Assembly (NCBI GenBank): GCA_026417415.1
Contig: JAOADG010000008.1
Span: forward strand, 248,001-312,000
Length of the DNA stretch: 64,000 nt
Origin: a bacterium
GTDB taxonomy: Bacteria > Electryoneota > JAOADG01
Direction: 5' to 3'
Shown here: positions 2,726-53,116 of the stretch, piece after piece
How positions within the stretch are numbered: position 1 is the stretch's first letter
Layout of the letters: each line of letters opens with the position of its first letter
Notes under the pieces: generated by a model
Database searches by the model: none
The model's input: the letters and a program-made list of their open reading frames with translations, nothing else
What the model was told of the DNA's origin: nothing
Program-made: the position numbers and the translations under genes

Positions 2726-2729
2726 TGAG

Positions 2730-4282: not shown

Positions 4283-4344
4283 GAGTATTCCTCAGATATT
4301 CTTTGAATAGAAAATAATCAAGAATGTATCATTGAAAGAAACGA

Positions 4345-4737
4345 TTAAGGCAAACTGCTCAATATATTCAAAAGTTGATCAATGCTGAAAGGTTTCTTGA
4401 GATTCATATTAAAACCGTATTGGTGATAATGAATCATTGCGTCTTCTAAAGGAGAGCCACTCATCAGAATAGTATAAATGGATGGTTGTAATTGTTTTAT
4501 TTGTTGATTGGTTTCAACCCCACCCATCCCATGAGTAATGTTCATATCAAGTAAAGCAACATCAAAAGGTTCATTTTGTAAAATTCCATTGCGAATTTCT
4601 TCAATTGCTAAAGTGCCATCACGGACAATGATACATTTCCATTGAATAAACTCGAAAACTTTTGTTAGTAACGTAATGATTAGATCTTCATCATCCAATA
4701 CAAGGATTTTTTTTGGTGGTATAGAAAGAGGATGCAT
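4345..4737 (-). CDS. Single-domain response regulator (CheY-like)
   Basis: This is a stand-alone receiver domain of 130 residues with no output domain. It shows the acidic pair DDE near residue 16, the phospho-acceptor Asp in ALLDMNI near 65, Ser in LMSGSP near 93 and the conserved Lys in LKKPF near 114. It would be phosphorylated by a histidine kinase and act by protein contact. No kinase is adjacent; the PAS kinase at 14793-16715 lacks a receiver and is a possible but unproven partner. Its ATG is preceded by a 293-base gap. Confidence 0.88.
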   Translation of the reverse strand: MHPLSIPPKKILVLDDEDLIITLLTKVFEFIQWKCIIVRDGTLAIEEIRNGILQNEPFDVALLDMNITHGMGGVETNQQIKQLQPSIYTILMSGSPLEDAMIHYHQYGFNMNLKKPFSIDQLLNILSSLP

Positions 4738-5030
4738 AAAAATCTCTTATTTCAATAAGAACGAAACAATATAATCATCAAACAAACAACTTCCTATCTT
4801 CTTTTCAATAAAATGAATTTTTAATTGAAATTTGTAAGAATAAAGTGGAATTACAAGATGTTCATTTTTATCTCATTGCTCTGGTAATGCAAGTGAAAAA
4901 TTGTAGAATCAATAATGGAAGAAAATTTACAATGATTTAGAAGTAATTGTTTATTTTCTTAGAAATGCGAAGAGTTTGCTTTAGGTTCGGTTTTCGCGTT
5001 TTTTAATCTATCGTACGTTTTATGATACTG
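4738..5030. other. Intergenic spacer between RND operon end and response regulator start
   Basis: This gap lies downstream of the RND gene and upstream of the response regulator gene, both on the minus strand. It is very AT-rich. It must hold the response regulator's promoter and possibly the efflux operon's terminator, but I could not pick a convincing -35/-10 pair or a strong hairpin. Confidence 0.4.
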
Positions 5031-32343: not shown

Positions 32344-33363
32344 TTATGAGTTGGACGGTTCTTCCATTCCGATCCATCGGTTAAATAAATTTTTACCCAG
32401 TAAATCTAAAAAATAAAAATCTTGGGTCGTAGGGATAAATATTTGATTTTTTCCAACTGCATTGCGTCCCGCAATTTCTCCTTGTTTTTCTGCACTTCGC
32501 CAACCAAAATTAGTTCTGTTGACATTGTTATGAAGATCAAATACTTGTGCACAATCACCGCATGCAAAAACGTTGGGTATATTTGTTCTAAGTTCTTCAT
32601 TCACCACAATTCCTTCATCAATGTGAATTCCACTTCCTTGCAGAAATGCCACATTCGGGACTTCTGCAGGCACAGCGATGATGGATTGAACATATTTTAC
32701 ACTTCCATCATTGAATACAACTGTGTAAGTTGTACCGTCTCGATCATAAACGTCAGTAATCCATACATCAAATTGTGGTGCAATATCAACTCCTTCAAGG
32801 AGACGAACTACATCTTCAACAGTTACACCGGGTAATTCTTTTGGCCAAAATAGATCCGGTCGCGCATAAAAATATACTTTGAGACCTCGAAGGTACAATT
32901 GGCGAATGATTTCTACAGCGATATAACCACCACCAGTAACGATGACTTCACGCGCATGAGTTAGTTCTTGTTTCAAACGACGTACATCTGAATAACTATG
33001 AATAGTGCGAACAAAACGTTCAAAACCTTTCAAATAAGAAATATCTGGAAAGGAACCAGATGCGATAACAAGAAAATCGTAAGAAATGCTTTTTTGATTA
33101 CTGAGTAAGACGCGATTGTTTTTTGGTTCAACAGAAGAAACTCGTGCACCTAATTCCCAGTGAACTATTTCAAGTGATTGCGGTACTTTGTAAATATTGT
33201 GTATAAAGTTTTCACGATGAAGTAATTCAACCAACATTGGTCTAAAATAGAAAGGTCCAAATTCTTCTGTGATTACAGTAATATCCGCTTGATTATCTTC
33301 TTTTAAGATTGTTTGAGTTGCGCTTAAACCAGCTGCACCAGCACCAATGATTACGTATCGCAT
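32344..33363 (-). CDS. FAD-dependent pyridine nucleotide oxidoreductase
   Basis: 339 residues with the two-dinucleotide-fold layout: N-terminal FAD motif VIIGAGAAGLSA, an internal NAD(P)H motif VTGGGYIAVE near residue 145 and the second FAD motif VFACGDCAQV near 270. The FYFRPML segment resembles the NADH-binding half of nitrite reductase NirB and rubredoxin/ferredoxin reductases. There is no redox CxxC disulfide, which argues against thioredoxin- or lipoamide-type enzymes. ATG 33363 has GGAAG upstream. It lies 66 bases after the pilus operon on the same strand; a functional link is not evident. Confidence 0.85.
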   Translation of the reverse strand: MRYVIIGAGAAGLSATQTILKEDNQADITVITEEFGPFYFRPMLVELLHRENFIHNIYKVPQSLEIVHWELGARVSSVEPKNNRVLLSNQKSISYDFLVIASGSFPDISYLKGFERFVRTIHSYSDVRRLKQELTHAREVIVTGGGYIAVEIIRQLYLRGLKVYFYARPDLFWPKELPGVTVEDVVRLLEGVDIAPQFDVWITDVYDRDGTTYTVVFNDGSVKYVQSIIAVPAEVPNVAFLQGSGIHIDEGIVVNEELRTNIPNVFACGDCAQVFDLHNNVNRTNFGWRSAEKQGEIAGRNAVGKNQIFIPTTQDFYFLDLLGKNLFNRWIGMEEPSNS

Positions 33364-33429
33364 AATTCTTCCATAGTTGATAGTAGAAAATAAAAAAAGC
33401 AATGTAAAGAAATTTTCTTGAAGAAAAAA

Positions 33430-34326
33430 TTAATTCATCCGCGACTTCGTTTTAGTTTGAACTTCGCGAACTAAATCTAATTCTCGAATTCTAATAAACC
33501 CCCCGTAGTTTAAAGTGAATTTTACTTTTGCTAAAACGGGATCGATAGTGGTTAGAAATCCTAAATAGACAGGGTCACCTTCTTCTAATACAGTTAGAAC
33601 ATTATTTTTATCTTGGATATATGCTTTATTTTTTAGAATAGCAATCAGTTTTGCTCCATCTACTTCAAGTAAACCCTCTTCATTTTTTGGAAGTTTTTCT
33701 ACCACTAAAGGACGAAACGGATTCCAAGGCGTTACATGATATTCTGGTAAATCATCAGGAATTTCATTTGACCCACTTGCTGCTGAATAAGCCACCATTT
33801 TTGCATGAACAGTAACTTTGTATTCATTGTAAGGTTCACCTTCGACGGGTGGTTTAAAATCCAATTGAAAATCTGGAATTACCAGAAGCCGTTTATGGCG
33901 TTCAATCGTAAAGATAAATTCATCTAAGGAAGCGTATGGAACATCGGCGCGAAAAGAGTATTTTCGCGAAGTTACCCCAAGTGTATCCTTTTCACCATTA
34001 AAATCAAAATCAAATGGGAATGGATTATCCAAAGTATCCACCATTCTATTAATAAAACTGTAAGTGATTCTACTATTTTCATCAATGGGAAGAATCTTTT
34101 TTCTTGTTAACCATCGTTTTTCCACTGTTTTTATCTCTTTTTCCATCAAAACGATATCGTTTGCTAAATTTGCATCAGCAATTAACTTTTGGGTTAGAAC
34201 GCTTAGTTGCGATTGGATTTTTATTTTTTCTTTTCTTGTCGGAATTACGATGAAAAACCATCCGATAGAATTTACCAATATCACGAGGACAGTTAATATA
34301 ATAGTATTTCTTAATGCATAACTCAT
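33430..34326 (-). CDS. PilO-PilP fusion-like pilus alignment protein
   Basis: 298 residues. An N-terminal transmembrane helix (~10-28) and a short coiled coil (~32-75) lead into a ferredoxin-like PilO domain (~90-195). After a Pro-rich linker, residues ~225-290 form a small beta domain (LEVDGAKLIAILKNKAYIQD...VLEEGDPVYLG...RIRELDL) that resembles the PilP periplasmic domain. In classic systems PilO and PilP are separate inner-membrane and lipoprotein subunits that bridge PilMN to the secretin. The gene follows the PilM-PilN fusion by 4 bases. PilO part likely; PilP part tentative. Confidence 0.7.
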   Translation of the reverse strand: MSYALRNTIILTVLVILVNSIGWFFIVIPTRKEKIKIQSQLSVLTQKLIADANLANDIVLMEKEIKTVEKRWLTRKKILPIDENSRITYSFINRMVDTLDNPFPFDFDFNGEKDTLGVTSRKYSFRADVPYASLDEFIFTIERHKRLLVIPDFQLDFKPPVEGEPYNEYKVTVHAKMVAYSAASGSNEIPDDLPEYHVTPWNPFRPLVVEKLPKNEEGLLEVDGAKLIAILKNKAYIQDKNNVLTVLEEGDPVYLGFLTTIDPVLAKVKFTLNYGGFIRIRELDLVREVQTKTKSRMN

Positions 34327-34330
34327 ACAA

Positions 34331-36010
34331 TCAACCTACTAAACCCTCTTTGGGAGTTGACGAAGGTGAAGTACGTGGACCCGTTTCTGAAGGTGTTGAA
34401 CCTGATTCCGTTTGAGTCGCTGGTAAATTCTCCGGTTTTTCAGATGGAACATCATCATTGGGATAAGGAACTTTAAATTCAAACTGATACAATATTCGAT
34501 TTTGAACCGTGACACGATTGATGCGTTGGATAACGGTATTTGGAAACAATTTTGATGCTTTAGAAACACTATTGCGATTTAAGGTTTTACCCATTATGGT
34601 GATGCCATCTTTTCCGCTTTGAATAGATTCGAACCAAATGCTCGGTATTTTTTTCCCTTCTGTATTAATCACTTGCAACAATTGACTCCAACGATGTGCA
34701 CCACGAGAAAGCGAATCGGAAAGTAAAAGAAGATTTTGCATCTCCGAAATCTTCAAAGTTAAACTGTCCAACTCGCGACGAAGCATTTGATTTTGCAAAT
34801 CTTGGCTTTGTTTGGTCAACAATTCAAGACGCAATCTGCGTAGTTCACTTTTATACTGACTTCCCAAAAATGTGATAAACAAAGAACTGATAAATAGGGT
34901 GATTAATAAAACATAACCGTGCCATGCAAGATTTAAGGTACGCTGACTACGCCGTATAGCGGTAGGGAGTAAATTTGATTTCCAAAACCCCTCTGGATTT
35001 AAAATTTTAACCGCTAAACCAATTGCAATAATTGCATCCGATTGAATAGCACGTTCTTCTTCTGAAAGAAAGCTATCATCACAATTGGCATTGGATAATT
35101 CTCTGATTTCTACATCAGGATAGCGACGTTCAAAGTATTCAATTGCACCTACAGCATAAATACAACCAGATAAAGCAATGCGATGTATTTCTGTGATATT
35201 GGCTTCATCTTGTTCAAGTAGAATTTTACTTACCAACGTTTGGAGTAAAGTCGGCGAATTTGCACCGGTTTGTATTAAAGGGGCAACGGTAATGACTTCA
35301 CGTCCACGTAAAAACAAAAGGTGTGTAAACTCTGGACCAATATGAATCTGAACCGTTACTTCATTGGGCTTGGCAGGCCATTCTCGATTGAGGACACCTA
35401 TCAAAATAACTTCAACAGGATCCACTAAACTATGTCGGATGCGAACATTTCCTAAAGCAGGTCGCATCTGTTCAAGGCGATTGATGATTTTAATTCCATT
35501 ACGATGGATAATACACCACGCCGGTGCTGTGCTTTGAACCTCTACATGGGAATTGTTAATGGTAACCACTTCACCAATTTTTTCTTCTGCTTCTTTACGA
35601 ATACGATCAACAATCGCATTGGTTTTTTCACTACCGCCATATTCACCAGCATTAAAAAAGCGGACATTAGCAGAAGGGATTGAATACCCTAAACGACATT
35701 TTTTAAGTGGCAATTGCTGTAAAGCAGACAACAGCAAATTGTTATCGTCTTCACTAATTTCTGTGGTTTCAACAATACCGGCTACTGCTGATTCTAAGTC
35801 GCCGCCAAAAACATCTTGACTGCTTTGAACAGTGAAAGCTCCGGTTTCTTTCTCGGATAATCCTTCAAAAGGTATAGACAAGGTTAATTTTTGAAGAGAA
35901 ACAATACGAAGTTGATCGCGAATCTTTGCAACATGTGCGATGGTAATTTCTTTACCATCAATATGAATACCTATTGCACCACCTAAAGATTGAGATAAAC
36001 TTGAGTTCAT
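34331..36010 (-). CDS. PilM-PilN fusion-like pilus assembly protein
   Basis: 559 residues. Residues 1-350 read like PilM, an actin-fold cytoplasmic protein (start GGAIGIHIDGKEITIAHV, middle RLGYSIPSANVRFF). A transmembrane helix (~367-387), a coiled coil (~390-435) and a domain resembling the PilN periplasmic end (HRWSQLLQVI, IPSIWFESIQ) follow. A Pro/Ser/Thr-rich tail ends the protein. PilM and PilN normally bind each other through the PilN N-terminal peptide; here they form one chain. It overlaps the PilT-like gene by 4 bases. Confidence 0.75.
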   Translation of the reverse strand: MNSSLSQSLGGAIGIHIDGKEITIAHVAKIRDQLRIVSLQKLTLSIPFEGLSEKETGAFTVQSSQDVFGGDLESAVAGIVETTEISEDDNNLLLSALQQLPLKKCRLGYSIPSANVRFFNAGEYGGSEKTNAIVDRIRKEAEEKIGEVVTINNSHVEVQSTAPAWCIIHRNGIKIINRLEQMRPALGNVRIRHSLVDPVEVILIGVLNREWPAKPNEVTVQIHIGPEFTHLLFLRGREVITVAPLIQTGANSPTLLQTLVSKILLEQDEANITEIHRIALSGCIYAVGAIEYFERRYPDVEIRELSNANCDDSFLSEEERAIQSDAIIAIGLAVKILNPEGFWKSNLLPTAIRRSQRTLNLAWHGYVLLITLFISSLFITFLGSQYKSELRRLRLELLTKQSQDLQNQMLRRELDSLTLKISEMQNLLLLSDSLSRGAHRWSQLLQVINTEGKKIPSIWFESIQSGKDGITIMGKTLNRNSVSKASKLFPNTVIQRINRVTVQNRILYQFEFKVPYPNDDVPSEKPENLPATQTESGSTPSETGPRTSPSSTPKEGLVG

Positions 36011-37245
36011 AGTCGTAAGAGCAATTCTTGCATTCGCTTTTTATTGTTGGCGAAATCAAGTGCTGTTTGTGGAGTAATTTTACGTAATCCTACCAAACGT
36101 GCTAAATCCTGTTCAACTGTAATCATCCCTTCAGCACTTGATTCATGAATCATTTGATATATTTCAGTAATGTTGTTATTGCGAATCGCTGCGCGTACAC
36201 TTGAATTCATTACCAGAACTTCCTTTGCAAGAACGCGAGTACCATCAGTGGATGGTACCAATTTTTGAGAAACGATACATTGTAGAACATCCGCTAACCT
36301 TAAACGGACGCGTGTTTGTTCAATTTCAGGTACTTCAGCGATAATGCGATCAATTGATTCTACGGCTGATGCTGTATGAAGTGTAGAAAAAACTTTATGG
36401 CCCGAATCAGTGATATCCAGAGCCGTCAATATGGTTTCTGGATCGCGCATCTCACCAATGACAATAATATCCGGATCTTGGCGAAGTGCTTGAATCGCGC
36501 CTTCCTTAAAACTTAAAACATCGCGACCTACTTCACGATGACGAACGATGCATTTATCCGATTGATGAATGGTCTCAATGGGCGAGGCAATGATAACGAT
36601 ATGAGCGTGAATGCTTTTATTATTTGCATCAATAATGCTGTCCAAAGTAGTACTTTTACCAGAACCAGTAATACCAGTGATAAGAATTAACCCCATTTTT
36701 ACGTGCGCCAAAGACATCACACGCGCTACATTGGGATGAAACTCGTAGGATCGAAATGGACGTATAATGTTGGGAATGTGGCGGAAATTCAGAGCAAGGT
36801 GTCCCATTTCGAAATAAGCATCAGCACGAAAACGGTGACGTACTGGTTCTTGAAGGTTCGTTCGACTAATTTCAGTCGTATAGGAAAAATCACAATTCCG
36901 TTTATTCCATAACATCTGTAATTGTGAATCATCAAGTAAATTCAAAATTACGACATCCATTTCATCAGCAGAAAATATGGGAAAACCATCTACGGGACGT
37001 TTGTATCCATGAATGCGATACCAAATTTTTCCACAAGAGGATTCGCCACCTATATCTAAATCTGAAGCTTCAATTTCAGGCATTTTTGCTGCTAAAAATT
37101 GAATGAAATTGTACAATACCGTTCGTTCTTTCCAATCCAATTTATTGAGAATGCTTGACATTTGGCGAAGTCGTTCAATACCAGCAGCAAAAGGATCAAT
37201 TTCATTGATAATGTAATCAGTTAAACTTTTAATTTCTTCATACAT
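36007..37245 (-). CDS. PilT-like ATPase with altered Asp box
   Basis: A hexameric secretion ATPase of the PilT/retraction class. Walker A GITGSGKST, Walker B IIVIGEMRDPET and the His box GHKVFSTLHT are intact. The Asp box, normally TIEDPIEF, reads IIASPIET, so the acidic pair is replaced by Ala-Ser. An N-terminal ~150-residue extension is longer than in PilT, and AIRAG-type end motifs are not recognisable. Possible roles are retraction, a regulatory or weak ATPase, or a structural partner of the two assembly ATPases. It overlaps the lipoprotein gene by one base. Confidence 0.85.
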   Translation of the reverse strand: MYEEIKSLTDYIINEIDPFAAGIERLRQMSSILNKLDWKERTVLYNFIQFLAAKMPEIEASDLDIGGESSCGKIWYRIHGYKRPVDGFPIFSADEMDVVILNLLDDSQLQMLWNKRNCDFSYTTEISRTNLQEPVRHRFRADAYFEMGHLALNFRHIPNIIRPFRSYEFHPNVARVMSLAHVKMGLILITGITGSGKSTTLDSIIDANNKSIHAHIVIIASPIETIHQSDKCIVRHREVGRDVLSFKEGAIQALRQDPDIIVIGEMRDPETILTALDITDSGHKVFSTLHTASAVESIDRIIAEVPEIEQTRVRLRLADVLQCIVSQKLVPSTDGTRVLAKEVLVMNSSVRAAIRNNNITEIYQMIHESSAEGMITVEQDLARLVGLRKITPQTALDFANNKKRMQELLLRL

Positions 37246-38624
37246 TAATCTACCGTACCTGAAGCGGTAATGATCGCATTTCCATTTAGGCCACGAGTTT
37301 CAATGGATATAATGCATGCTTTGGGTGGTTCAGCTTCATTAGGATCATCGTCCGAAAGTGTAAAATAAAACCTGGTCCATCCATCACTTTGAGTATCAGG
37401 AAACACCAAATCAACATCTCCTGTGAGAACACCAACTGTGGCTGAAACTTTAAACGTAGTACCGCGTGACAAGGGATGATTTAACCAATCTGCTAAGTAA
37501 ACTTCAAACGCTTGTGAACCGCGATTTGCAACTGTAAAACTCGTAGGGGTCACTTGAAAAAATCCAATTACACCAGACCACAACAACCGACCTGAAACAG
37601 AATAAGAATTTCCTGTCCAATCTACGGTTTGAACATGAGCATAAGACCAACCTGTTGGTGGATAAGGATTACCACTAAATAGTAAAACCCAAGCAATTCC
37701 ATTATCATTGGTGATACCCATTCCTTGAATAACACCATGATCCGAAGAGAAATAGGCGCGCGTACCTGCAGGGACCGGATTGCTATAGCGATCACCAATA
37801 AGCACCATCACTGTATCAATACGTGCAACCCAATCCAAGCCGGGGAAGTTGATGCGATCAAAACCAATGGTTGTGTGTAATGAATCAGGAGGACCTGAAT
37901 GAATCGTCACTCGCACAGGTCTTGCTACGATTGTATCATTGCAGCTCGCAACAACTTGAACAGTACCGGGGCGGATACCAGAAATGATAGAACAACTAAC
38001 ACGTCCGTTAATATCTGTTACTGCTGTATCATTCCCTAAATATTCTCCACCACCCGTGCTACCTTCTATTCGGAAACGAACCGTTGTACGGTTATTTAGA
38101 TCGACCGGAACGCCACGATTATCACGAACTTCATAGGTTAGTATCATGGCTTCAACGATACCAGTTTCGCGAACACCAATTGATGGTACATTTGATCCAA
38201 TAAAAAGAATAGAAGAGGGTGGACCTGAAGGTCCTGTATGAATGTTTGTATCGGGTGTATCAGCAATATTGCGTAGTTGAAAGGTTGGCAACTCAATCCG
38301 TCGCCCAGATCGTGCCATAATGGAAATTGTATCAGCAATATATTGAGCAGCAGAGGCAATAACATCAACTTCTGCCTGAAAACTATCGCCTGTAATAATC
38401 GTAAAAACATAATCGCCATTGGAATCGGTTCTACCTGTTTCTGGAAATTGTGCTGTACGAACGTTAGCATCTGGAATACCACGATTGGTACGTGCATCAA
38501 CCACACGTCCTGCTAAAGTTACGCTCGTTTCTGAAACAACATTATCATCTTGTTCACAGGATAGATAGAAGAGGGAAGTGAAAGTTAGAAAAATCAAAAA
38601 GCAAAAAAAATGTTCGCGATTCAT
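37245..38624 (-). CDS. Ig-like (invasin-type) lipoprotein in pilus operon
   Basis: 459 residues with a lipoprotein signal peptide (LFYLSC, Cys ~23). Next is a carboxypeptidase-regulatory-like beta-sandwich (VTLAGRVVDARTNRGIPDANV...TDSNGDYVF). Bacterial Ig-like (BIG_1) repeats follow, for example VRFRIEGSTGGGEYLGNDTA with VTDINGRVSCSI, and NPVPAGTRAYFSSDHGVI with TNDNGIAWVLL. Such proteins are adhesive or scaffolding. Being embedded in the pilus operon with one-base overlaps on both sides, it may be a pilotin-like or surface component; this is inference. Confidence 0.78.
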   Translation of the reverse strand: MNREHFFCFLIFLTFTSLFYLSCEQDDNVVSETSVTLAGRVVDARTNRGIPDANVRTAQFPETGRTDSNGDYVFTIITGDSFQAEVDVIASAAQYIADTISIMARSGRRIELPTFQLRNIADTPDTNIHTGPSGPPSSILFIGSNVPSIGVRETGIVEAMILTYEVRDNRGVPVDLNNRTTVRFRIEGSTGGGEYLGNDTAVTDINGRVSCSIISGIRPGTVQVVASCNDTIVARPVRVTIHSGPPDSLHTTIGFDRINFPGLDWVARIDTVMVLIGDRYSNPVPAGTRAYFSSDHGVIQGMGITNDNGIAWVLLFSGNPYPPTGWSYAHVQTVDWTGNSYSVSGRLLWSGVIGFFQVTPTSFTVANRGSQAFEVYLADWLNHPLSRGTTFKVSATVGVLTGDVDLVFPDTQSDGWTRFYFTLSDDDPNEAEPPKACIISIETRGLNGNAIITASGTVD

Positions 38625-39127
38625 TACCTACCCTCACGTAAGAGTAATTCTAATTCTCGGATTCTTTCATTGGCACCAATGAGTTTTGATATAATGATTC
38701 TTGTCAAATTAAACACGAAGAGTTTGAACAAACGTTCCTCTCTTCTACGAAACCAGTCAAGTACTTTATCTCGTTCAAATTGTAAAAGTTCGGTATAAGT
38801 TTCTGCTTCTGCAGTCGCTACGCGTGAGGGACCAAAAAATGATACTTCACCAAATACGGAACCTTTCGTAAGCACTTGATATTTCACTTTTAGGTCGTGA
38901 CTCCAAATGGCTACTTTACCAAAAAGGATTACATAAAAATGATTTGAAGGATACCCTTCACGAACTATTAAAGAGGAGATAGGGTAATCTATCACACGAC
39001 CCATTTGGAGAAAACTTTCTCGTTCATACACTGAAAAACCATGGAGAAGTTGTCCAAAATCAGTGTCCTGATAACCATATCCAGTTTTCCAAGCAGGTAT
39101 TGATTGTTTTGTGGGTTCAGTTTCCAT
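38624..39127 (-). CDS. Stand-alone cyclic-nucleotide-binding-domain protein
   Basis: 167 residues, essentially one CNB domain (~30-130) plus a helical tail. The phosphate-binding cassette is well kept: FGEVSFFGPSRVATAEAET has the Gly-Glu and the Arg that hold cAMP or cGMP in CRP and PKA-type domains. There is no helix-turn-helix, so it is not a transcription factor. It follows assembly ATPase 1 by 7 bases. Its tail (RREERLFKLFVFNLTR) resembles that of the receiver-CNB protein at 44358-45284, so the two are likely paralogues. Confidence 0.85.
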   Translation of the reverse strand: METEPTKQSIPAWKTGYGYQDTDFGQLLHGFSVYERESFLQMGRVIDYPISSLIVREGYPSNHFYVILFGKVAIWSHDLKVKYQVLTKGSVFGEVSFFGPSRVATAEAETYTELLQFERDKVLDWFRRREERLFKLFVFNLTRIIISKLIGANERIRELELLLREGR

Positions 39128-39134
39128 CGTTCAT

Positions 39135-40937
39135 TTACTCATCTGTAGTTGCACTTAATACTTCTTCAACCGTTGTTACACCGCTCTTTACGCGATGTAA
39201 ACCTGATTGACGTAAGGTTAACATACCGTGTTTAATCGCCAAATCACGTATTCCGGCTTCATTAACATCTTCTTTGGAAGCAAGTATAAATTCGCGTATA
39301 TCTTTATGAAAATACAACGCTTCATGAATAGCAGTCCGACCTTTCCAACCGCTGTTACATTTGGAACAACCTACTGGTGCGAAAAATTCGGTTTCTTCAA
39401 TTTCTTGTTCTGTAAAACCTGCACGAAGTAATGCTGCACGCTCCAACTGATTTTTTTCCATAGGTCGTTTGCAGTGAACGCACAGTGTGCGTATTAAGCG
39501 TTGAGCAACGATAATGTTAATTGCATAAGCAATTAAAAAAGGTTCAATTCCCATTTTATACAATCTTGAAACTGCTGAGGGTGCGTCATTGGTATGCAAC
39601 GTCGAAAATGTCAAGTGACCTGTATTGGCAAGTTTAATTCCTAACTCTGCAGTTTTTTTATCTCTCATTTCGCCAACCATCACAATATCCGGATCATGTC
39701 GTAAAATCGCACGAATGGCTGCATCAAAATCCAACTTATGACTAATTTTGATTTGCCGAGCACCTTTAATCAAGTATTCTACAGGTTCTTCAACAGTGAG
39801 GACACATTTTTCTGGAGTAATCACATAATAGAGAGCACCCATTAAAGTGGTAGATTTTCCACTCCCAGTCGGACCTGTCAGTATCACCATTCCTTGCGGG
39901 GCAGAGATAGCTTTCAAATAGTCAGCTTTTGCTTGCGGTTGTAAACCTAATTTTTCTAAATCAGTAATAACCTTACGATCATCAATAATACGAATGACAA
40001 TAGATTCCAATTTCCGATCAAATTCTTGGCCAACAATAGGAATGATAGATACACGAAAACGCATCATATGATCATCAATTTTCCGTTGAATAAAACCATC
40101 TTGTGCCATATCCCTTTCAAAACGGTCCACATTTTTTGAACGATCTTTCACCACAGCAGCAATCGCTTCTGGTTTAATTCCATCTTGGCGATGCCATAAT
40201 CGTAATTTTCCATCTAAACGAAAATAGAATTCTGTTACATTTCCAGCCAATGGAATGATATGAATATCACTAGCACCTTGACGGACCCCTTCTACTAAGC
40301 AACCTTCAATAAGATTGACCAGCAACGATTGATTGATTTCAGCATCCAAGGCCTCTTCATCAATTGCTGTGGGCTCTTCGCTGATTACTTCAATACTTTT
40401 CGTCGTTTCTTCTAATATCTGAAGAAACTCATTTTTAACAGGATACAGTTGTTGGATTACATTTTGCAGTGATTCTAATTTGCAATAAACGATTTCATAA
40501 CGTTTGATTCCTAAATCGGTGACGATATCAGATAAATCACGTTCAGTAGGATCGGGTGTTAGGATAATCGTTTGACGTTGGTTATTTCCTGGTAATACCA
40601 AGATCTTTCGATCCAAAAGGGTATCGCGATTTCGTTCGCTAATGTTGTCATAGAACGATTTAATACTATCCAATTGTTCTTGTGTAAAGGGGGTAAGTTC
40701 TAAATCTACTGTTTTAAAAGCATACAAAGTTGCAATAGTACTAAATACTTTATCGCGATTAATCCCTAAATCTGTAACTAAAATCTCTCCTAATTTTCTT
40801 TTTCCTTTGGTGGGTTCACGGTTTTGGATGTCAATTGCTTTGTTAAGTTGTTCAAGAGTAATCACCCCTTGTTCTACCAATAGATAACCTAAACGGTTAG
40901 GAGATTTTAAGGTAGAAAGAATTGGGTTGGAACTCAT
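39135..40937 (-). CDS. GspE/PilB-type assembly ATPase 1
   Basis: 600 residues. The N-terminal ~60 residues match the MshEN/T2SSE_N pattern (NRLGYLLVEQGVITLEQLNKAI...KLGEIL). The ATPase core has Walker A GPTGSGKST, Asp box VEEPVEY, Walker B VMVGEMRDKKTAE and His box GHLTFSTLHTNDA. A zinc-binding tetracysteine loop is formed by CVHC and CSKC. These features define PilB/GspE-type extension or secretion ATPases. It lies 2 bases after the platform protein gene and is a close paralogue of the ATPase at 45286-47112. Confidence 0.95.
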   Translation of the reverse strand: MSSNPILSTLKSPNRLGYLLVEQGVITLEQLNKAIDIQNREPTKGKRKLGEILVTDLGINRDKVFSTIATLYAFKTVDLELTPFTQEQLDSIKSFYDNISERNRDTLLDRKILVLPGNNQRQTIILTPDPTERDLSDIVTDLGIKRYEIVYCKLESLQNVIQQLYPVKNEFLQILEETTKSIEVISEEPTAIDEEALDAEINQSLLVNLIEGCLVEGVRQGASDIHIIPLAGNVTEFYFRLDGKLRLWHRQDGIKPEAIAAVVKDRSKNVDRFERDMAQDGFIQRKIDDHMMRFRVSIIPIVGQEFDRKLESIVIRIIDDRKVITDLEKLGLQPQAKADYLKAISAPQGMVILTGPTGSGKSTTLMGALYYVITPEKCVLTVEEPVEYLIKGARQIKISHKLDFDAAIRAILRHDPDIVMVGEMRDKKTAELGIKLANTGHLTFSTLHTNDAPSAVSRLYKMGIEPFLIAYAINIIVAQRLIRTLCVHCKRPMEKNQLERAALLRAGFTEQEIEETEFFAPVGCSKCNSGWKGRTAIHEALYFHKDIREFILASKEDVNEAGIRDLAIKHGMLTLRQSGLHRVKSGVTTVEEVLSATTDE

Positions 40938-40939
40938 GA

Positions 40940-42283
40940 TTAGGTTCCCGGCATTTTAGGTTTAATTACTGCTGTCTCAGAAGAGACAATCGTGATAGCA
41001 GTCATAACAAACATGATAATCATTGCAATGGCGACTTGAATTAAATCAATGATGGTGCGAAGTTTATAGGTAGTTTCCTTTTCGTAATAATTCGCTACTT
41101 GAAGCGCGGTATATCTTATCGTACCTGTTTCTGCACCACTGCGCAAGCGGGATAAGGCATTTTCTGTAAAGACACCAGTGGCTTCTAACGATTCCACCAA
41201 ACCTTTTCCTTCTTTTAACATCATTGGAATAGCAATTTCGGTAATCTGTTTTTCCATATAACGGTTGTTACATGCTTCTGCTGCTACGCGTATCGCTTCA
41301 ATGTTTTCACCTGATCCACCATACAAAGAATAAAACACTCGACAAAAAATTTCAATAGAAGTTTTATGCATTAAGGAACCCACAACGGGTATTCGGATAA
41401 GATATTTGTTAATGATAAATTTCCCTTTTTCTGAAGTTACAAAGAAATATCCACCAATCACAGGAATCAAAGTCAAGATTGTCAAAATTAACCAATTTCT
41501 TTGAAGAAAATAAGATAAATCCAATGTTGCTTTCGTCATTGGAGGGAGAGGGATATTAAACCGAACAAACAATTCTGCTGTTTTAGGAAATATGTACCCT
41601 ACATAGAAAGCAACTGCAATTGCTAAAACAATCATCACAATGGTTGGCATAATAAGAGCAGATTTAAGATTTTTTTTAAATTCGGCAGTACGCTCTAAAA
41701 ATTTTGCAGTCGATTCATAAATTTCCACCATATTTCCTGATTTAGAAGCAACCCCTAACATATAAGCGGCAAATTTTCCCAAACCGCGTTCATGTTTACC
41801 GAATACTTCTTTTCCATCTTTTCCTTCACGTAGATCTTTACTAATTTCTCTTAAAATCTCACGCAGTGCTTTGTTTTGAATATCGTTGGATAATAACGTT
41901 AAAATTTCATCATAAGGCATTTTTTCGCGTAAGAGATCTGCGGACAAACGTATAAACATAACCACTTCATTTCGGGGTGGTTTAACATTAAAATCGAAAA
42001 GTTTTGGTTGGATAGAGAGTACCTTATATCCTAACCTTTCTAGTGCATTGCGAACTTCTTCTATAGAATATGCTTTTTGCTCACCTTTGATGGGTGCATC
42101 GGTTCCTTTTTGAACTTTATAGATGAAAGTTCGTTTTTTTTGAACAGCAGTTAATTTGAAATGATGTTTGAGTGCAAGTTCTTGAGCACGTTTGAGGGCT
42201 TCTGATTTACTTGTAGAAGGGATTATTCCTTGTACTAATTTTCCCGTCGGTGTAAGCCCAACATAACGAAAATCAATAGACAC
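40940..42283 (-). CDS. PilC/GspF inner-membrane platform protein with extra N-domain
   Basis: 447 residues. Two GspF repeats are seen at ~105-230 and ~305-430, each ending in hydrophobic helices (ALIMPTIVMIVLAIAVAFYVG and QVAIAMIIMFVMTAI). The standard FRYVGLTPTGKLVQGII start is followed by a second similar small domain (YSIEEVRNALERLGYKVLSIQPK), giving ~100 residues before the first repeat, more than usual. The protein sits under the pilus and couples ATPase movement to pilin insertion. It lies between the pilin terminator and ATPase 1. Confidence 0.92.
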   Translation of the reverse strand: MSIDFRYVGLTPTGKLVQGIIPSTSKSEALKRAQELALKHHFKLTAVQKKRTFIYKVQKGTDAPIKGEQKAYSIEEVRNALERLGYKVLSIQPKLFDFNVKPPRNEVVMFIRLSADLLREKMPYDEILTLLSNDIQNKALREILREISKDLREGKDGKEVFGKHERGLGKFAAYMLGVASKSGNMVEIYESTAKFLERTAEFKKNLKSALIMPTIVMIVLAIAVAFYVGYIFPKTAELFVRFNIPLPPMTKATLDLSYFLQRNWLILTILTLIPVIGGYFFVTSEKGKFIINKYLIRIPVVGSLMHKTSIEIFCRVFYSLYGGSGENIEAIRVAAEACNNRYMEKQITEIAIPMMLKEGKGLVESLEATGVFTENALSRLRSGAETGTIRYTALQVANYYEKETTYKLRTIIDLIQVAIAMIIMFVMTAITIVSSETAVIKPKMPGT

Positions 42284-42372
42284 GAATACCCCTACAATCT
42301 CCTATTTCTAATATACAAATTTTATTTTACGAAAACCTGAAAACGAAATCCATTTTTACGAATGGATACAAA

Positions 42373-42398
42373 AATGGGCTTGCAAAAGCAAGCCCATT
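42373..42398 (-). terminator. Hairpin terminator/attenuator after the pilin gene
   Basis: An 11-bp perfect stem (AATGGGCTTGC / GCAAGCCCATT) with a 4-base loop, followed by TTTTT in the minus-strand transcript. It lies ~20 bases after the pilin stop and before the platform gene, so it should let pilin mRNA accumulate above the downstream machinery genes. Confidence 0.8.
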
Positions 42399-42418
42399 AT
42401 CCATCATCTTATAATCAA

Positions 42419-42826
42419 TTAACGTGTTATAGTTGGTGTTGGAACCGTTGTGGCAGTGATTCCAGCATAAACCACAGTAACGCCTTCACGTCCTACACCA
42501 GTTAATGTCATCGTGTTCACGCCGCGAGCAGAAATCGTAAATTGATCACCATTTGCATTGGTCCAAACAGTAGTTCCTGGACCAACCGGTTTTCCGATAA
42601 TAGAAAAATCAAAGTTGGTGTAGTCGTTTTGGACAGCTGGACCACCAAGTGCTGCTGGTTTACGAACCCATTGTTGTGCTGCGCTTATGATGCCTAAGCA
42701 TTCTTGAACCACTTGGTCTTCATTTGCTTGCTTGGCACTGGTTCCAAATAAATTGATACCGATCACTACAGCGATACCTACAATGATAACGCCAAGGACG
42801 ATCAAGAGAAGTTGTTGTTGACCCAT
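42419..42826 (-). CDS. Pilin-like protein with atypical N-terminus
   Basis: 135 residues from ATG 42826, fixed by GGAGGAAATT just upstream. It begins MGQQQ and has one long hydrophobic helix (LLLIVLGVIIVGIAVVIGI), then an amphipathic stretch (AKQANEDQVVQECLGIISAAQQWVRKP) and a Gly/Thr-rich beta half. This is pilin architecture, but the G/FTLIE prepilin site is missing: no charged leader and no Glu at +5. If processing occurs, cleavage after Gly2 is conceivable. Strong ribosome binding site, long leader and own terminator all point to high expression as the major subunit. Function inferred from architecture and locus. Confidence 0.72.
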   Translation of the reverse strand: MGQQQLLLIVLGVIIVGIAVVIGINLFGTSAKQANEDQVVQECLGIISAAQQWVRKPAALGGPAVQNDYTNFDFSIIGKPVGPGTTVWTNANGDQFTISARGVNTMTLTGVGREGVTVVYAGITATTVPTPTITR

Positions 42827-43133
42827 AATTTCCTCCGAATGAATTGAATGATTAGGATAAAGTGCGATATCAGATCGAATCCCCATTGCTTTCGCAATAA
42901 CAGTCAAGATAGTGTAAACTATTCCTACTGCTTTCTCACTGATATCTGTTTTCCAACAGGTGGCTGAAAATCGCAAAGAACAACATCAACCACTACGTAA
43001 AGAATAAAATAAAAAAAAGTAAAGAACAAGTAAAAAAGAGAATTTGTAAATTTAATATGTGATAGATAACCACCTAAAAAATAATTATAATTACCAATAA
43101 ATGTGATATAAGTCAACTCAAATATTCTATTAC
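42827..43133 (-). other. Long structured 5' leader/upstream region of the pilin gene
   Basis: This is 307 bases between the secretin stop and the pilin ATG. On the minus strand it contains three short perfect hairpins: CTGTT-GGAA-AACAG (42959-42946), ATAGT-TTAC-ACTAT (42922-42909) and ATTGC-GAAA-GCAAT (42898-42885). Two have GNRA loops. A TTGACT and a downstream TATAAT occur near 43110-43080 but are 21 bp apart, too far for a standard promoter. The known c-di-GMP riboswitch cores were not recognised. Confidence 0.45.
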
Positions 43134-44321
43134 TTATTCTTCCACTTGCTTTTCTAAATTCCGTAAACGTTGTTCTCGTTTAGCTTTTTCTGTATCTAAA
43201 CGCTGCTCCATTAAACGCTGCTCCATTCGTGTACGCAGATCTGGCTCTAAATCCACTTTAAGCATGATGACCAACTCTTTTTGATTAACCAATTCACGTT
43301 CATACCCTGCTATATATCGTATCCCCAAAACCCACCAGGGTAAATCTTTCAAGAAAGGAATCCCTTTGCGTGTCGTACGTTTTTCAGTGGTATATAAACC
43401 ACCAATCGCTGCTTCTTCACCGGGCAACATCAATAAAGAAGTACTTGCTTGTGATTTATTAATCGTTGTTGTGAGTTGGCTAACATCACCTGTAGAACGT
43501 TCAACATTAATTTTGAGGAGTATAAAGGTAACTCCTTTATCAACAATTACTGTTGGTTGAACGCGTAAAATAGTACCAGCAGATACAAAAGATTCAATCG
43601 TGTTTCCTGCAAAATCACGGGTCTTTATAGAAAAATCTTGACCTACTTGTACATATCCTTCTTGCTTATCGCGCACTCGGATCTGTGGATTCGACAGCAC
43701 ATGCCCTAATCCTTTGTTCTCGAATGTCTTTACTAATCCAGAAACCGATAATGAACGATCAATTTGTCTTTGAATAGATAAAGTAAAAATATTGTTATCA
43801 GATACATTTTCTGCTGTTTGTTGTACTGCAGAAGTATTTACGACTCCAGATGAAATGGTACTCCAGTTTATCCCTAATTCACGTAAAGCCGATCGATCCG
43901 CTTCAAAAAAAATGGCTTCTATAATCACTTCCCGCGTATCTACACCAATTAAATCAACTTTTTCCAAACCTTCCGTTTTTTTTGTCAAAGGGTTGTACAC
44001 ACGAATGAAATTTGGTCCCTCTTCAAATTCTAATTCATTCTTTTTACATATCATTTCCAAAGCTTTTCGCCAGTGTGTATTGATAATCTCTATTCCAATC
44101 GCATTGGTTTTTTCTGAATGATCAACAATCACTTTCCCAATGGTTTTGAACGATACTTCATTGATCAATTGAAGGGCTTTACCAATTTCAACGGTTTCTG
44201 AAATAGAAACATTGAAATCAGGTTGATTCCCTTTAGTCCACTCAGGACGCGGTTGAGTTTGTGAGAAACTATAAAAAGGAAAAAAAATAACAATGAAAAA
44301 AATTAAAATTTGTTGTTTCAT
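43134..44321 (-). CDS. Short secretin (PilQ/GspD family)
   Basis: 395 residues with a signal peptide (MKQQILIFFIVIFFPFYSFSQ). One small N-domain of STN/N0 type (VIVDHSEKTNAIGIEI...WRKALEMICKKNELEF) comes first, then a secretin core (VIIEAIFFEADRSALRELGINW, LSNPQIRVRDKQEGYVQVGQ, LLMLPGEEAAIGGLYTTEKR...GIPFLKDLP). It forms the outer-membrane gate. It is shorter than typical PilQ/GspD because most N-domains are missing, and it ends in a charged coiled coil (MEQRLMEQRLDTEKAKREQRL). ATG 44321 is preferred to TTG 44330. Confidence 0.9.
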   Translation of the reverse strand: MKQQILIFFIVIFFPFYSFSQTQPRPEWTKGNQPDFNVSISETVEIGKALQLINEVSFKTIGKVIVDHSEKTNAIGIEIINTHWRKALEMICKKNELEFEEGPNFIRVYNPLTKKTEGLEKVDLIGVDTREVIIEAIFFEADRSALRELGINWSTISSGVVNTSAVQQTAENVSDNNIFTLSIQRQIDRSLSVSGLVKTFENKGLGHVLSNPQIRVRDKQEGYVQVGQDFSIKTRDFAGNTIESFVSAGTILRVQPTVIVDKGVTFILLKINVERSTGDVSQLTTTINKSQASTSLLMLPGEEAAIGGLYTTEKRTTRKGIPFLKDLPWWVLGIRYIAGYERELVNQKELVIMLKVDLEPDLRTRMEQRLMEQRLDTEKAKREQRLRNLEKQVEE

Positions 44322-44357
44322 AGCATACAACCGATTAAAAAATAGATTTTGTCAAAC

Positions 44358-45284
44358 TCAATTGTAAGATGAATGACTTTTTATACGATTTGTCAGAGAC
44401 AATTCTTGAAATACAATATCCATCCATTCTGTCTGCTGACGAATCAAATTCAGTATCCACAATTTAAACAATCGCTCTTCGTGAACTTTAAAAAACGAAA
44501 TTGCTTCTTTAGGAGTGATGCGAAAGATATGCGATTCTTCTTCAGCAATAAGGGTAACGGGCGCAAAAGAAATTTGCAAAAGCGAAAAAGCACCCCATGC
44601 ATCACCCGTACGTAAAATTAGTATAGAGCTATGATTGCGCTCTATACGTATCCTACCAGATAGAACAACAATGATACTACTCTGATTTTCCCATTCAACA
44701 CGACTGCCTTCATTTAAGGTAATTTCTTTACCAATCGTTCTAAATTGGAGATACTCTTCATACTTCCAACCCTTGAACAATTTTGGTAATAAGGTGTCTT
44801 CATATTTTCTTTCATCGTATTGAACTAACAAAGAACGCATTTTTTCAATTTGGGTTTCAGCTTGTCGGATTGCTCGCCTTTGATGAATTAACTCAACGGC
44901 ATTGCGTATGGTAACTTCTAATTCAGTTAATAATATTGGCTTAGAAAGAAAATCAAAAGCGCCGCGTTTCATCGCTTCACGCATGGTCTCTTTAGTATCT
45001 AAAATCGTAAATACTATAAGTACTACATCTGGGTTTTTTGTATGTAATTTTTCCATTAGTTCAAAACCATGCATTCCCGGCATAGCGAGGTCAGTAATCA
45101 CTAAGTCGATAGGATACGTATTAAATAATTCTAATGCTTCTTCGCCACTATTGGCTGTTAAGGTTTGATAGCCATAAGATTCAATCGCTGCCTTCATAAA
45201 ATCTGTGATACTGGATTCATCATCTACGACTAGAACGTGTATAACTTCACTGGGTTTGCCGAAAATATTTTCTATTTGGGTCAT
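44358..45284 (-). CDS. Response regulator with C-terminal cyclic-nucleotide-like domain
   Basis: 308 residues. A complete receiver domain comes first (acidic VVDDE, phospho-Asp in VITDLAMPG, Thr in VFTILD, Lys in SKPILL). A coiled linker follows, then a CNB-fold domain from ~185. The phosphate-binding cassette is degenerate: WGAFSLLQISFAPV lacks the Glu and Arg. The tail (HEERLFKLWILNLIR) matches that of the CNB protein at 38624. ATG 45284 lies one base after the ATPase 2 stop, with GGAAG upstream. It likely relays a phospho-signal to the pilus ATPase rather than to DNA, as there is no DNA-binding domain. Confidence 0.85.
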   Translation of the reverse strand: MTQIENIFGKPSEVIHVLVVDDESSITDFMKAAIESYGYQTLTANSGEEALELFNTYPIDLVITDLAMPGMHGFELMEKLHTKNPDVVLIVFTILDTKETMREAMKRGAFDFLSKPILLTELEVTIRNAVELIHQRRAIRQAETQIEKMRSLLVQYDERKYEDTLLPKLFKGWKYEEYLQFRTIGKEITLNEGSRVEWENQSSIIVVLSGRIRIERNHSSILILRTGDAWGAFSLLQISFAPVTLIAEEESHIFRITPKEAISFFKVHEERLFKLWILNLIRQQTEWMDIVFQELSLTNRIKSHSSYN

Positions 45285-45285
45285 A

Positions 45286-47112
45286 TCAATCTTCCATTGT
45301 TGTGGCAACAACTTCTTCTATGGTTGTTATACCTTCTTTAATTCTTTCTCGTCCACTAGCACGAAGGGTCAACATTCCTTCACTAACTGCTAAATCGCGG
45401 AGTTCATCTTCATTTATATCGGTTTTGCTATTGATAATAAATTTGCGGATAGTACGAGAAAAATACAACGCTTCATGAATCGCTGCACGACCCTTGTAAC
45501 CTTGATTGCAAAGTTCGCATCCAACGGCTTCATAAAAAATGGTATTTTTTATTTCCTGATCGTTAAATCCAAGCGCACGTGCTACCTGATCATCAATTAA
45601 TTTAGACGGTCGTTTACAATGTGGACAAAGTGTACGTAACAATCGTTGTGCAACTACAATATTCATTGCAGTGGCAATCAAAAAAGGTTCAACCCCCATT
45701 TTGTAAAGTCGTGATACTGCAGAAGGCGCATCGTTGGTATGTAATGTGGAAAAGGTTAAATGGCCTGTGTTTGCAAGTTTTATAGCAATTTCTGCGGTAA
45801 TTTTATCTCGCATTTCTCCTACCATCACAATATCAGGGTCATGTCTTAAAATTCCACGTATAGCGCCTTCAAAATCTAAAGTATGAGATAAACGAATCTG
45901 ACGTGCATCGCGAATCATGTATTCTACAGGATCTTCAATGGTAAGTACATTTTTTTCTGGTGTCAATACTTGATAAAGTGCAGCAAGAAGTGTAGTTGAT
46001 TTTCCGCTACCTGTCGGACCTGTGAGGATTACCATCCCTTGAGGTCGTGTTATGGCTTTCACAAACGCTTCTTTTGCCTGTTTATGAAATCCTAATTTTG
46101 ACAAATCAGTGATTACTTTACGATCATCTAAGACACGAATGACAATTGACTCAAATTTCCTGCGAAAATCTTGCGCCACAATCGGCATAATGCTTACACG
46201 AAAACGAATCACTGCACCATCAATTTGACGTTGTATAAATCCATCTTGAGAAGCATCCCAAACAAATCGATCAACATTCCGAGTGCGATCTTTAATCACT
46301 GCCGAAATCGTTTCTGGTTTAAATCCTTCTTGAGTGTGCCATAATCTAAGTTTTCCATCAATTCTAAAAAGAAAGTCCGTCCGATTTTGACCACGAGGAA
46401 GAATGTGGATATCACTGGCTCCTTTTCTAACTGCTTCAACTAAGCAACCTTCAACCAAATTAATTAAAAGTGAACTGTTAGTATCTAAATCAAGTTCAAT
46501 TTCATCAGGTCCAGTTTCTTCTTCTTGAGGAATGGATGCAACTTCACTGGTATATTCTTCAATTAAAGCCAAAAATTCATTTTGTGGTTTTTCAACTTCA
46601 TCTAAAATTTGAGTAATTTCTTGTAGCGAAGCATAAGCCAATTCGTATCTAGAAAGTTTTAATTGAAACAGGAGCAAATTCAGTGAAGGATCAGTTACAT
46701 CTTCAGTGATAAAGGTAATAATATCATTCGAGTTATTAGGAAATTTGTAAGGGATAATATGATTGATTAAAAATTTTTGTTTCGTCTCTTCTGAAACTTT
46801 TTCAAAAAAATCACGTATGTAAGTATATAAATCATCTTTTTTAATTTGTGATAGATCAACCTCAGGAAACCCGTAAATTCTGGCAATTGTACGAAAGACT
46901 GCATCGCGATTACAACCTAAATCGGTTGATAAAATTTCACCAAACCGACGTTTTGCAGGTCCTTCGCGTCGTTGAATTTCCAAAGCTTTTTGAACTTGTT
47001 GAGGGGTTGCAATACCTAACTCTATCAATTGATCACCCAGACGAGTCATGGTCTGTTCTGAACCTGAACGATTAGGTGTAGTTTTTCCTGGAGTCGGTAG
47101 AATTGGAGACAT
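45286..47112 (-). CDS. GspE/PilB-type assembly ATPase 2
   Basis: 608 residues, colinear with ATPase 1 at 39135-40937. MshEN-like N-terminus (TRLGDQLIELGIATPQQVQKAL...RFGEIL), Walker A GPTGSGKST, canonical Asp box IEDPVEYM, Walker B VMVGEMRDKITAE, His box and CPHC/CELC zinc loop are all present. The N-terminal 20 residues are Pro/Ser-rich. It is first in the pilus operon. Two near-equal extension-type ATPases in one locus suggest either two functional states of one machine or two substrates. Confidence 0.95.
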   Translation of the reverse strand: MSPILPTPGKTTPNRSGSEQTMTRLGDQLIELGIATPQQVQKALEIQRREGPAKRRFGEILSTDLGCNRDAVFRTIARIYGFPEVDLSQIKKDDLYTYIRDFFEKVSEETKQKFLINHIIPYKFPNNSNDIITFITEDVTDPSLNLLLFQLKLSRYELAYASLQEITQILDEVEKPQNEFLALIEEYTSEVASIPQEEETGPDEIELDLDTNSSLLINLVEGCLVEAVRKGASDIHILPRGQNRTDFLFRIDGKLRLWHTQEGFKPETISAVIKDRTRNVDRFVWDASQDGFIQRQIDGAVIRFRVSIMPIVAQDFRRKFESIVIRVLDDRKVITDLSKLGFHKQAKEAFVKAITRPQGMVILTGPTGSGKSTTLLAALYQVLTPEKNVLTIEDPVEYMIRDARQIRLSHTLDFEGAIRGILRHDPDIVMVGEMRDKITAEIAIKLANTGHLTFSTLHTNDAPSAVSRLYKMGVEPFLIATAMNIVVAQRLLRTLCPHCKRPSKLIDDQVARALGFNDQEIKNTIFYEAVGCELCNQGYKGRAAIHEALYFSRTIRKFIINSKTDINEDELRDLAVSEGMLTLRASGRERIKEGITTIEEVVATTMED

Positions 47113-47275: not shown

Positions 47276-48523
47276 ATGATTCCACAGGAATATATTTCAT
47301 TTGGTATGGCAATCCTTTTAGGTGCACTGATTGGTACCGAAAGACAGTTTGCTTCTAATCAGGTTGATAAGTATATCGGTGGAATACGAACGTTTGTATT
47401 TCTTGCGCTTGGTGGTTCAATTGCTGCATATATTGAAGATAGATACATCCCCAACTTTTTTTTGCTTGCATTTATCGCGACGTTTTTATTGGTTTTAGCC
47501 AATTACATCTTCGTCACATCAAAAAGTGGCGAACCCGGAACCACTACTGAATTTGTGTCGCCTATTGTTTTTTCTTTGGGTGGGTTAAGTTGGTGGCAAG
47601 AATATGGTTTAACCATCGCTCTTACCATCATTGTACTTTTCTTTTTATCATCAAAAAGAATGTTCCAACAACTCACTACCCATTTTACTTACGAAGATAT
47701 TCGTGCATCAACGGTTTTGTTGGTTTTATCTGGAATAGTACTACCAATAGTACCCAATCAATGGTATGGACCCTATTTAGCATTCAATCCTTATCGGATA
47801 TGGTTATTCATTATTTTGGTTAGTTCGTTATCTTTTGCAGCATACATTGTATTAAAAATTTTTAGGCAATCCTTAGGAATTGTAGTCACTGGCATTTTAG
47901 GTGGATTGATTTCATCTACAGCAGCAACCATTGCATTAGCCAAACGATCAAAAGAATCACCAGCATATTCACAAATTTTTTCAGAAGCTGCAGTCGTTGC
48001 TTCTGCTATTATGCCATTTCGTGCGGTTATATTTGCGATTATTGTATTACCACAAAACTGGATAACAATTTTCCCTATCGCTTTACCAGGTTTATTGATT
48101 GGAGCGTGGTTATCCAATAAACTTATCAAAGAAAAAGAGCAAAATATCGGACAACTACAAATTTCCAACCCTTTCCGTTTGAAAGAAGCCACACAGTTTG
48201 GTATCATTTTTGCCGCAGCGACTTTACTGTCAAAGGCTGCAAAAGAATGGTTAGGAGAAAATGCTATTGTAATGATTACCGGTTTATCCGGTGTACTATC
48301 AGTAGATGCTGCAGTGCTATCATTAGGGGAACATATGGGGAATGTAGCTGACCATGCATTCATTCCCATGAGTATTGCTGCTGCAATTTTTACCAATTGT
48401 ATTGCGAAGATTGGAATTGCTTACTATTTCGGAACAGAAATTTACAGAAAAAATACAATGAAATGGTTTTTAATCATCGGCATCACTTCTTTTATCCCAC
48501 TTCTCATCCATGTATTAAGATAG
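47276..48523 (+). CDS. MgtC/SapB-like DUF4010 membrane protein
   Basis: 415 residues with about a dozen hydrophobic helices. The first ~130 residues match the MgtC/SapB domain (AILLGALIGTERQF, GGIRTFVFLALGGSIAAY). The rest matches DUF4010 (VTGILGGLISSTAATIALAKRS, LSGVLSVDAAVLSLGEH). Known members are predicted transporters or membrane-stress proteins with unsettled function. ATG 47276 has no strong Shine-Dalgarno. The EamA gene follows after 13 bases. Confidence 0.88.
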   Translation: MIPQEYISFGMAILLGALIGTERQFASNQVDKYIGGIRTFVFLALGGSIAAYIEDRYIPNFFLLAFIATFLLVLANYIFVTSKSGEPGTTTEFVSPIVFSLGGLSWWQEYGLTIALTIIVLFFLSSKRMFQQLTTHFTYEDIRASTVLLVLSGIVLPIVPNQWYGPYLAFNPYRIWLFIILVSSLSFAAYIVLKIFRQSLGIVVTGILGGLISSTAATIALAKRSKESPAYSQIFSEAAVVASAIMPFRAVIFAIIVLPQNWITIFPIALPGLLIGAWLSNKLIKEKEQNIGQLQISNPFRLKEATQFGIIFAAATLLSKAAKEWLGENAIVMITGLSGVLSVDAAVLSLGEHMGNVADHAFIPMSIAAAIFTNCIAKIGIAYYFGTEIYRKNTMKWFLIIGITSFIPLLIHVLR

Positions 48524-53029: not shown

Positions 53030-53116
53030 ATTTCTAAATCAAACGCTAAATTTTATTGTAGAATTTCTAAGTAAGAATTAAATTGATAACCTAAGATTGG
53101 GATACTGAGGTTGTTC

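Follow-up and report, generated by a model that had tools for sequence, protein, structure and literature searches.

What kind of machine is encoded by a pilus-like locus that holds no prepilin peptidase, and how could its subunits be made? The question is raised by 12 genes, all on the minus strand, at positions 32344-47112 of the window, i.e., the 64,000 nucleotides of contig JAOADG010000008.1 (positions 248,001 to 312,000; assembly GCA_026417415.1) from a bacterium whose GTDB phylum, Electryoneota, seems, judging from identical locus scores, to take in genomes labelled candidate division LCP-89. The locus probably represents a separate branch of the type IV filament (T4F) superfamily, in all likelihood a retractable pilus with subunits made without a prepilin leader. 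It is also fairly probable that a whole T4F clade, distributed over phyla of the Fibrobacteres-Chlorobi-Bacteroidetes (FCB) type and two Gemmatimonadota genomes, has dropped prepilin processing, with methionine aminopeptidase replacing the prepilin peptidase, which would hence not be universal. The leaderless pilins, the most unusual feature of the system, were absent from the original prediction, which had been made from the letters of the DNA alone.

A second type IV filament system in the host genome

All twelve genes of the predicted pilus/secretion-like locus are present. By Pfam and NCBIfam they include two PilB-type ATPases, a PilT-type ATPase, a GspF/PilC protein and a secretin, together with a receiver-cyclic-nucleotide-binding (REC-CNB) protein, a CNB protein, a Big_1 lipoprotein and a Pyr_redox_2 flavin adenine dinucleotide (FAD) protein. 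The broad set that marks a T4F (PilB/GspE-type ATPase, PilC/GspF-type platform and secretin) is complete, and at the sequence level the locus also holds the PilT retraction ATPase and the PilM/N/O alignment complex that mark type IVa pili (T4aP). The host genome (2.2 Mb, completeness score 100%) carries an ordinary, complete T4aP operon on another contig, C3 (L006:7580-16808 and L007:4945-9030), comprising pilA with GFTLIEV, pilT, minor pilins, pilM, N, O, P and Q, an Ig lipoprotein, pilB, pilC and pilD; alongside it, the window locus is a second T4F system, paralogous and divergent. In the C3 operon, a 1098-aa Big_1 lipoprotein and an SLBB protein are inserted 5' of pilB.

A genome of the same family as the host carries a syntenic locus, and a scan with PilB1 found relatives in Calditrichaeota-labelled, LCP-89, KSB1, Latescibacterota, Ignavibacteria, Rhodothermota/Salinibacteraceae, Cloacimonadota and Gemmatimonadota records. 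The genes pilA-pilC-pilB stand in this order in 41 loci; pilT-pilMN-pilOP-secretin do so in 19, and contig ends interrupt many of the rest. The combined order is kept in FCB-type phyla and the two Gemmatimonadota genomes; in the window locus, the secretin stands ahead of the pilin.

The phylogeny of PilC, with 22 classic PilC sequences (including Escherichia coli HofC) and E. coli GspF as references, places all 56 window-type sequences in one clade on a branch of 3.78 substitutions per site (SH-aLRT 100). That of PilB, whose references include E. coli GspE and HofB, likewise gathers 62 window-type sequences, both window PilBs among them, on a branch of 2.31 substitutions per site (SH-aLRT 100). 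References were sampled from the phylum's own T4aP, the carrier genomes and E. coli, and the loci were found via similarity to the window PilB1, so that sampling is biased toward the window-type clade. The split from classic sequences is strong, while the depth of the clade and its neighbours are unsure owing to the long branches. The branch lies neither among T4aP nor with the GspE and GspF of type II secretion systems (T2SS). Neither of the two subunits with trees therefore falls inside ordinary T4aP or T2SS clades, and these clades, together with the conserved gene order, support the predicted lineage-specific T4F beyond the classic layouts.

Pilin starts and the prepilin peptidase

The class III signal peptide of prepilin subunits has been stated to be invariable, and the prepilin peptidase is counted among five ancestral core parts of the machine (PMC10191384). 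The major pilin of the window starts MGQQQLLLIVLG, both leader and Glu5 being absent, at position 42826, with the Shine-Dalgarno sequence GGAGG just upstream. Homologues with MGQQQLLLIVLG-type starts, collected with the window pilin as query so that more divergent pilins could be missed, are spread across FCB-type phyla, and all of the approximately 60 full-length major pilins found begin with MG[QTSN][QT]Q followed by a hydrophobic helix. In 57 of 59 homologues, translation could begin no earlier than this Met, as the stretch back to the preceding in-frame stop (median about six codons) holds no start codon, and a Shine-Dalgarno match precedes the Met in 44. M1, G2 and Q5 are invariant across 56 pilins, residues 1-24 are devoid of D, E, K and R, and both features are identical in genomes with and without a prepilin peptidase. 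An in-frame upstream TTG, corresponding to an open reading frame of 185 aa, was rejected as the start of the window pilin, as GGAGG precedes the MG start and the homologues lack upstream starts.

Three minor pilins, encoded in the operons of relatives, are leaderless too, starting MNTGQM (minor pilin 1), M..xLD.. with an acidic residue at codon 6 (minor pilin 2) and MGR or MGQ (minor pilin 3). Their loss from the host genome was considered and rejected, all three being grouped on contig C5, apart from the window locus. In the host's classic operon, a PilX-like protein with a leader is a homologue of minor pilin 3 (4e-20 and 3e-19, head domain); in the alignment of the two, M1-G2 of minor pilin 3 match the final two positions of the leader. 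The exact register of the helix is uncertain here, the alignments of the major pilin pointing to an offset of roughly one residue. By sequence, the major and three minor pilins start at, or within a few residues of, the start of a mature pilin.

Of 50 genomes carrying the locus, 14 gave a Peptidase_A24 match and 13 an A24_N match above cut-off, and 36 had neither domain above cut-off; control genomes with known peptidases scored positive in these searches. The host PilD used as query (E<=1) matched nothing in 23 peptidase-negative genomes and matched both positives tested (2/2). The peptidase-negative carriers include a complete chromosome, AP024675.1 (KatS3mg041), and two isolates, Salinivenus lutea DBO and S. 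iranica CB7. The window-type PilC is the sole PilC-type platform in 33 of the 36, the remaining three each having a contig that carries both a classic PilC and an N_methyl pilin, and N_methyl-type pilins are nearly absent from peptidase-negative genomes, matching only in G050, G051, G066 and G072, of which G051 has an isolated single match. The predicted absence of a prepilin peptidase holds for the locus but not for the host genome, which has one on C3. A gap of the locus alone was rejected as an account of the missing peptidase, since most carrier genomes also lack one.

Several points weigh against a leaderless pilus. The pilin was modelled confidently by AlphaFold2 (AF2; pLDDT 94.4) as a 53-residue helix (residues 3-55) and a four-stranded sheet, but Foldseek matched this model to no solved pilin in the PDB, and its link to classic pilins is weak (hhalign probability 59; PDB matches at E 0.1-3), so that its identification as the major pilin depends on synteny, architecture, weak profile matches and the homologous minor pilins. 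Homologues of its head domain also exist as orphan membrane- or lipid-anchored proteins. The carriers are mostly draft metagenome-assembled genomes, which makes single absences soft. The invariant Gly2 could be a relic of the -1 residue, a two-residue leader might still be cut in PilD-bearing genomes, and a non-homologous protease may process the pilins.

The head-domain orphans with other anchors are found at L200:1518-1904 (host contig C26) and in L185, L186, L190 and L192; that of the host is lipoprotein-like, others have a short RDR-type N-terminus, and in several genomes they apparently lie near an sppA-like gene. Two or three leaderless major pilins stand in tandem in some loci (L037:2969 onward, L065 and L100), and L037 carries a second, divergent PilB, which suggests subunit switching. 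In the open-access literature, the only literature covered, no published leaderless or peptidase-independent type IV pilin and no MGQQQ motif was found.

Known systems and competing explanations

The window system shares with T4aP, including the host's own C3 operon, PilB, PilC, PilT, the PilM/N/O functions, a secretin, a large PilX-like minor pilin and a linked Ig lipoprotein. It differs in having no prepilin leader, no Glu5 and no prepilin peptidase in the locus, in the fusion of PilM and PilN, in a PilO with an extra C-terminal domain, and in PilB and PilC sequences that form separate clades.

The best-surviving alternative, itself improbable, is a secretion machine rather than a pilus, in which substrates are driven out via the secretin by a short, T2SS-like pseudopilus. 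The set of three minor pilins and the shortness of the secretin fit such a machine, and T4F relatives have independently become secretion systems, as exemplified by the 'T2SS' of Bacteroidetes (PMC6668835, PMC5553014), a peculiar system proposed as a possible novel T4aP derivative. The latter (Cytophaga hutchinsonii CHU_3191-3201) is likewise a divergent T4F of the same superphylum with PilM/N/O/P that are hard to recognise (PMC5553014, PMC6668835), but, compared by description only, it has a prepilin peptidase gene of the Peptidase_A24 type in its own cluster (CHU_3197), and PilT is not among the components listed (PMC5553014). The T2SS pseudopilus of E. coli (gspC-O) also combines a major subunit with three or four minor ones, including a large K/X-like one, a secretin and E and F proteins; in contrast with the window system, its G, H, I and J subunits have classic leaders, the peptidase gspO lies in the operon, PilT is absent, and GspE and GspF fall outside the window-type clades. 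Against a secretion machine, the conserved operon includes a PilT-type ATPase with intact Walker A, Walker B and His boxes, major pilins often come in two or three copies, the alignment proteins are of PilM/N/O rather than GspC/L/M type, and the PilC and PilB trees give no T2SS-like placement.

Ranking below this, and unlikely, is a leader shrunk to Met-Gly that is still removed by a prepilin peptidase acting in trans, as in the mannose-sensitive haemagglutinin (MSH) pilus. The MSH locus too is without a prepilin peptidase of its own, and its assembly ATPase has an MshEN-type domain (below cut-off in the window PilBs), but a peptidase belonging to another system is always present in MSH genomes (PMC6668835), whereas most window-type carriers have none. 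Gly is the usual -1 residue and Gly2 is invariant, the host has its PilD on C3, and the alignment of minor pilin 3 sets Gly2 at the -1 position of the classic PilX; however, Gly2 is just as invariant in the 36 genomes without detectable peptidase, one complete chromosome and two isolates among them, and in some species minor pilins 1 and 2 have no Gly or Ala near the start (e.g., MTQTLYG and MHVLLDH).

Less probable again is that the locus makes no filament from the MGQQQ protein, this being a membrane-anchored accessory, with the true pilin encoded elsewhere with an ordinary leader. The lack of a Foldseek match and the head-domain orphans outside the system would agree with this, but the gene lies immediately 5' of pilC-pilB in at least 41 loci, N_methyl-type pilins are almost wholly missing from peptidase-negative genomes, the predicted long helix and antiparallel sheet are pilin-like, and three further leaderless pilin-like genes belong to the system. 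Mis-annotation, with true start codons upstream that supply a leader, is refuted by the start-codon and Shine-Dalgarno counts in the homologues, despite the in-frame TTG in the window.

Putative mechanism, components and significance

Under the favoured reading of a leaderless, retractable pilus, the major pilin would insert N-in/C-out through its N-terminal hydrophobic helix, and methionine aminopeptidase, for which Gly2 is a good substrate context, would remove Met1. This would probably be the sole trimming, leaving a free amine and an N-terminus like that of a processed pilin, minus N-methylation. PilB1/PilB2 and PilC, held by PilMN and PilOP, would polymerise the subunits through the secretin, and PilT would depolymerise them, retraction being likely because PilT keeps its Walker A, Walker B and His boxes. 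A Glu5 salt bridge is formed in ordinary filaments (PMC10191384); between the major subunits of this system it would be impossible, and the uncharged QQQ tail may stand in for the bridge of Glu5 with the N-terminus, while the corresponding site of minor pilin 2, which becomes position 5 if Met is cleaved off, is still acidic. Extension may be coupled to nucleotide and two-component signals by the MshEN-like domains of the ATPases and by the CNB and REC-CNB proteins. Such control is plausible because relatives repeatedly have REC-CNB or CNB genes at the same place.

Table 1. Features of the window locus (positions in the window).
Feature	Position (strand)	Length	Evidence
PilB1, extension-type ATPase	45286..47112 (-)	608 aa	T2SSE 1.9e-98; PilB TIGR02538 405 bits; in leaderless-system PilB clade
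Receiver + CNB protein	44358..45311 (-)	317 aa	Response_reg 2.8e-28; weak cNMP_binding 3.9e-4, below curated cut-off
Short PilQ-like secretin	43134..44330 (-)	398 aa	Secretin 1.9e-24; PilQ TIGR02515 90.7 bits
Leaderless major pilin, MGQQQLLLIVLGVIIVGIAVVIGINLF...	42419..42826 (-)	135 aa	Start and Shine-Dalgarno read directly
Intrinsic terminator, directly 3' of pilin gene	42373..42398 (-)		11 pairs + T tail
PilC/GspF-type platform protein	40940..42283 (-)	447 aa	T2SSF 7.7e-31; leaderless clade in PilC tree
PilB2, extension-type ATPase	39135..40937 (-)	600 aa	T2SSE 4e-96; leaderless PilB clade
Stand-alone CNB domain protein	38624..39127 (-)	167 aa	cNMP_binding 1.8e-15
Ig (Big_1/CarboxypepD_reg) lipoprotein	37245..38624 (-)	459 aa	Domain search
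PilT-type retraction ATPase	36007..37245 (-)	412 aa	pilT_fam 9.8e-92, just under curated cut-off
PilM-PilN fusion	34331..36010 (-)	559 aa	Profile vs PDB; AF2 + Foldseek
PilO protein + C-terminal extension, possibly PilP domain	33430..34326 (-)	298 aa	
FAD-dependent pyridine-nucleotide oxidoreductase	32344..33402 (-)		Pyr_redox_2 8.3e-39

The joining of PilM and PilN functions in one protein, as predicted, is not recognised by Pfam but is borne out by profiles against the PDB (PilN 1.8e-11; PilM:PilN 5eou 4e-5) and by the AF2 model, whose top Foldseek match is PilM:PilN (1.2e-14). In the adjacent protein, the predicted PilO was recovered (PDB PilO 5.2e-8; hhalign 94% to the host's own classic PilO), whereas the PilP domain was sought there and found no confirmation. 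The secretin is indeed short, its counterpart in the C3 locus having 475 aa. PilT has IASPIE in place of IEDPIE at its Asp box (motif table), and in the PilT copies sampled from the lineage the first Glu and the Asp of this box are gone (I[AGS]xP[IV]E). A catalytically dead PilT was rejected: the Mg-coordinating Glu of PilB is E357, 38 residues ahead of E395 (PMC5424180), and by Walker B spacing its equivalent is the second Glu, which is retained.

Of the signalling parts, the receiver domain retains its phosphoacceptor Asp and the stand-alone CNB protein its FGE...R cassette (both read from the sequence), and no DNA-binding domain was seen in the REC-CNB protein. Homologues of the latter sit in the corresponding operons of L024 and L028, and the Latescibacterota locus L043 has a CNB gene at the matching position. 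The MshEN-like cyclic di-GMP motif (NF053729) scores just under the cut-off of 38 bits on PilB2 (36.5) and PilB1 (30.7), lying at the N-terminus in PilB1. Ig lipoprotein homologues are found 5' of pilT in L024-L028 and L099, and elsewhere within the operon in L037, L043 and L044. The terminator stem behind the pilin gene is the longest among the sites listed, the number of such sites in the region being not above shuffles; a strong hairpin there would be expected of a highly expressed major subunit within an operon.

The FAD gene has a homologue in none of the gene maps of related loci, and is therefore treated as a co-directional neighbour, probably outside the machine. An MgtC/DUF4010 membrane protein (47276-48523) is divergently transcribed from PilB1. 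The predicted substrate of a type IX secretion system (T9SS) is present in the window as a C25 peptidase with Por_Secre_tail (53111-58360), and a similar C25 peptidase, of 1739 aa and likewise with a T9SS sorting domain, lies directly upstream of the minor pilins on C5 (peptidase and minor pilins together at L141:69-2453 and 2658-7877); the link between locus and T9SS is co-occurrence alone.

The leader peptide serves both to define type IV pilins and to search for them, and a leaderless lineage, which leader-based gene finders would miss, breaks both the leader rule and the core-peptidase rule. If true, the prepilin peptidase would be dispensable, rather than essential, for type IV filament machines, and the lineage would be a natural test of the roles of the leader, N-methylation and Glu5. 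As it includes cultivated bacteria (Salinivenus), the question is directly testable.

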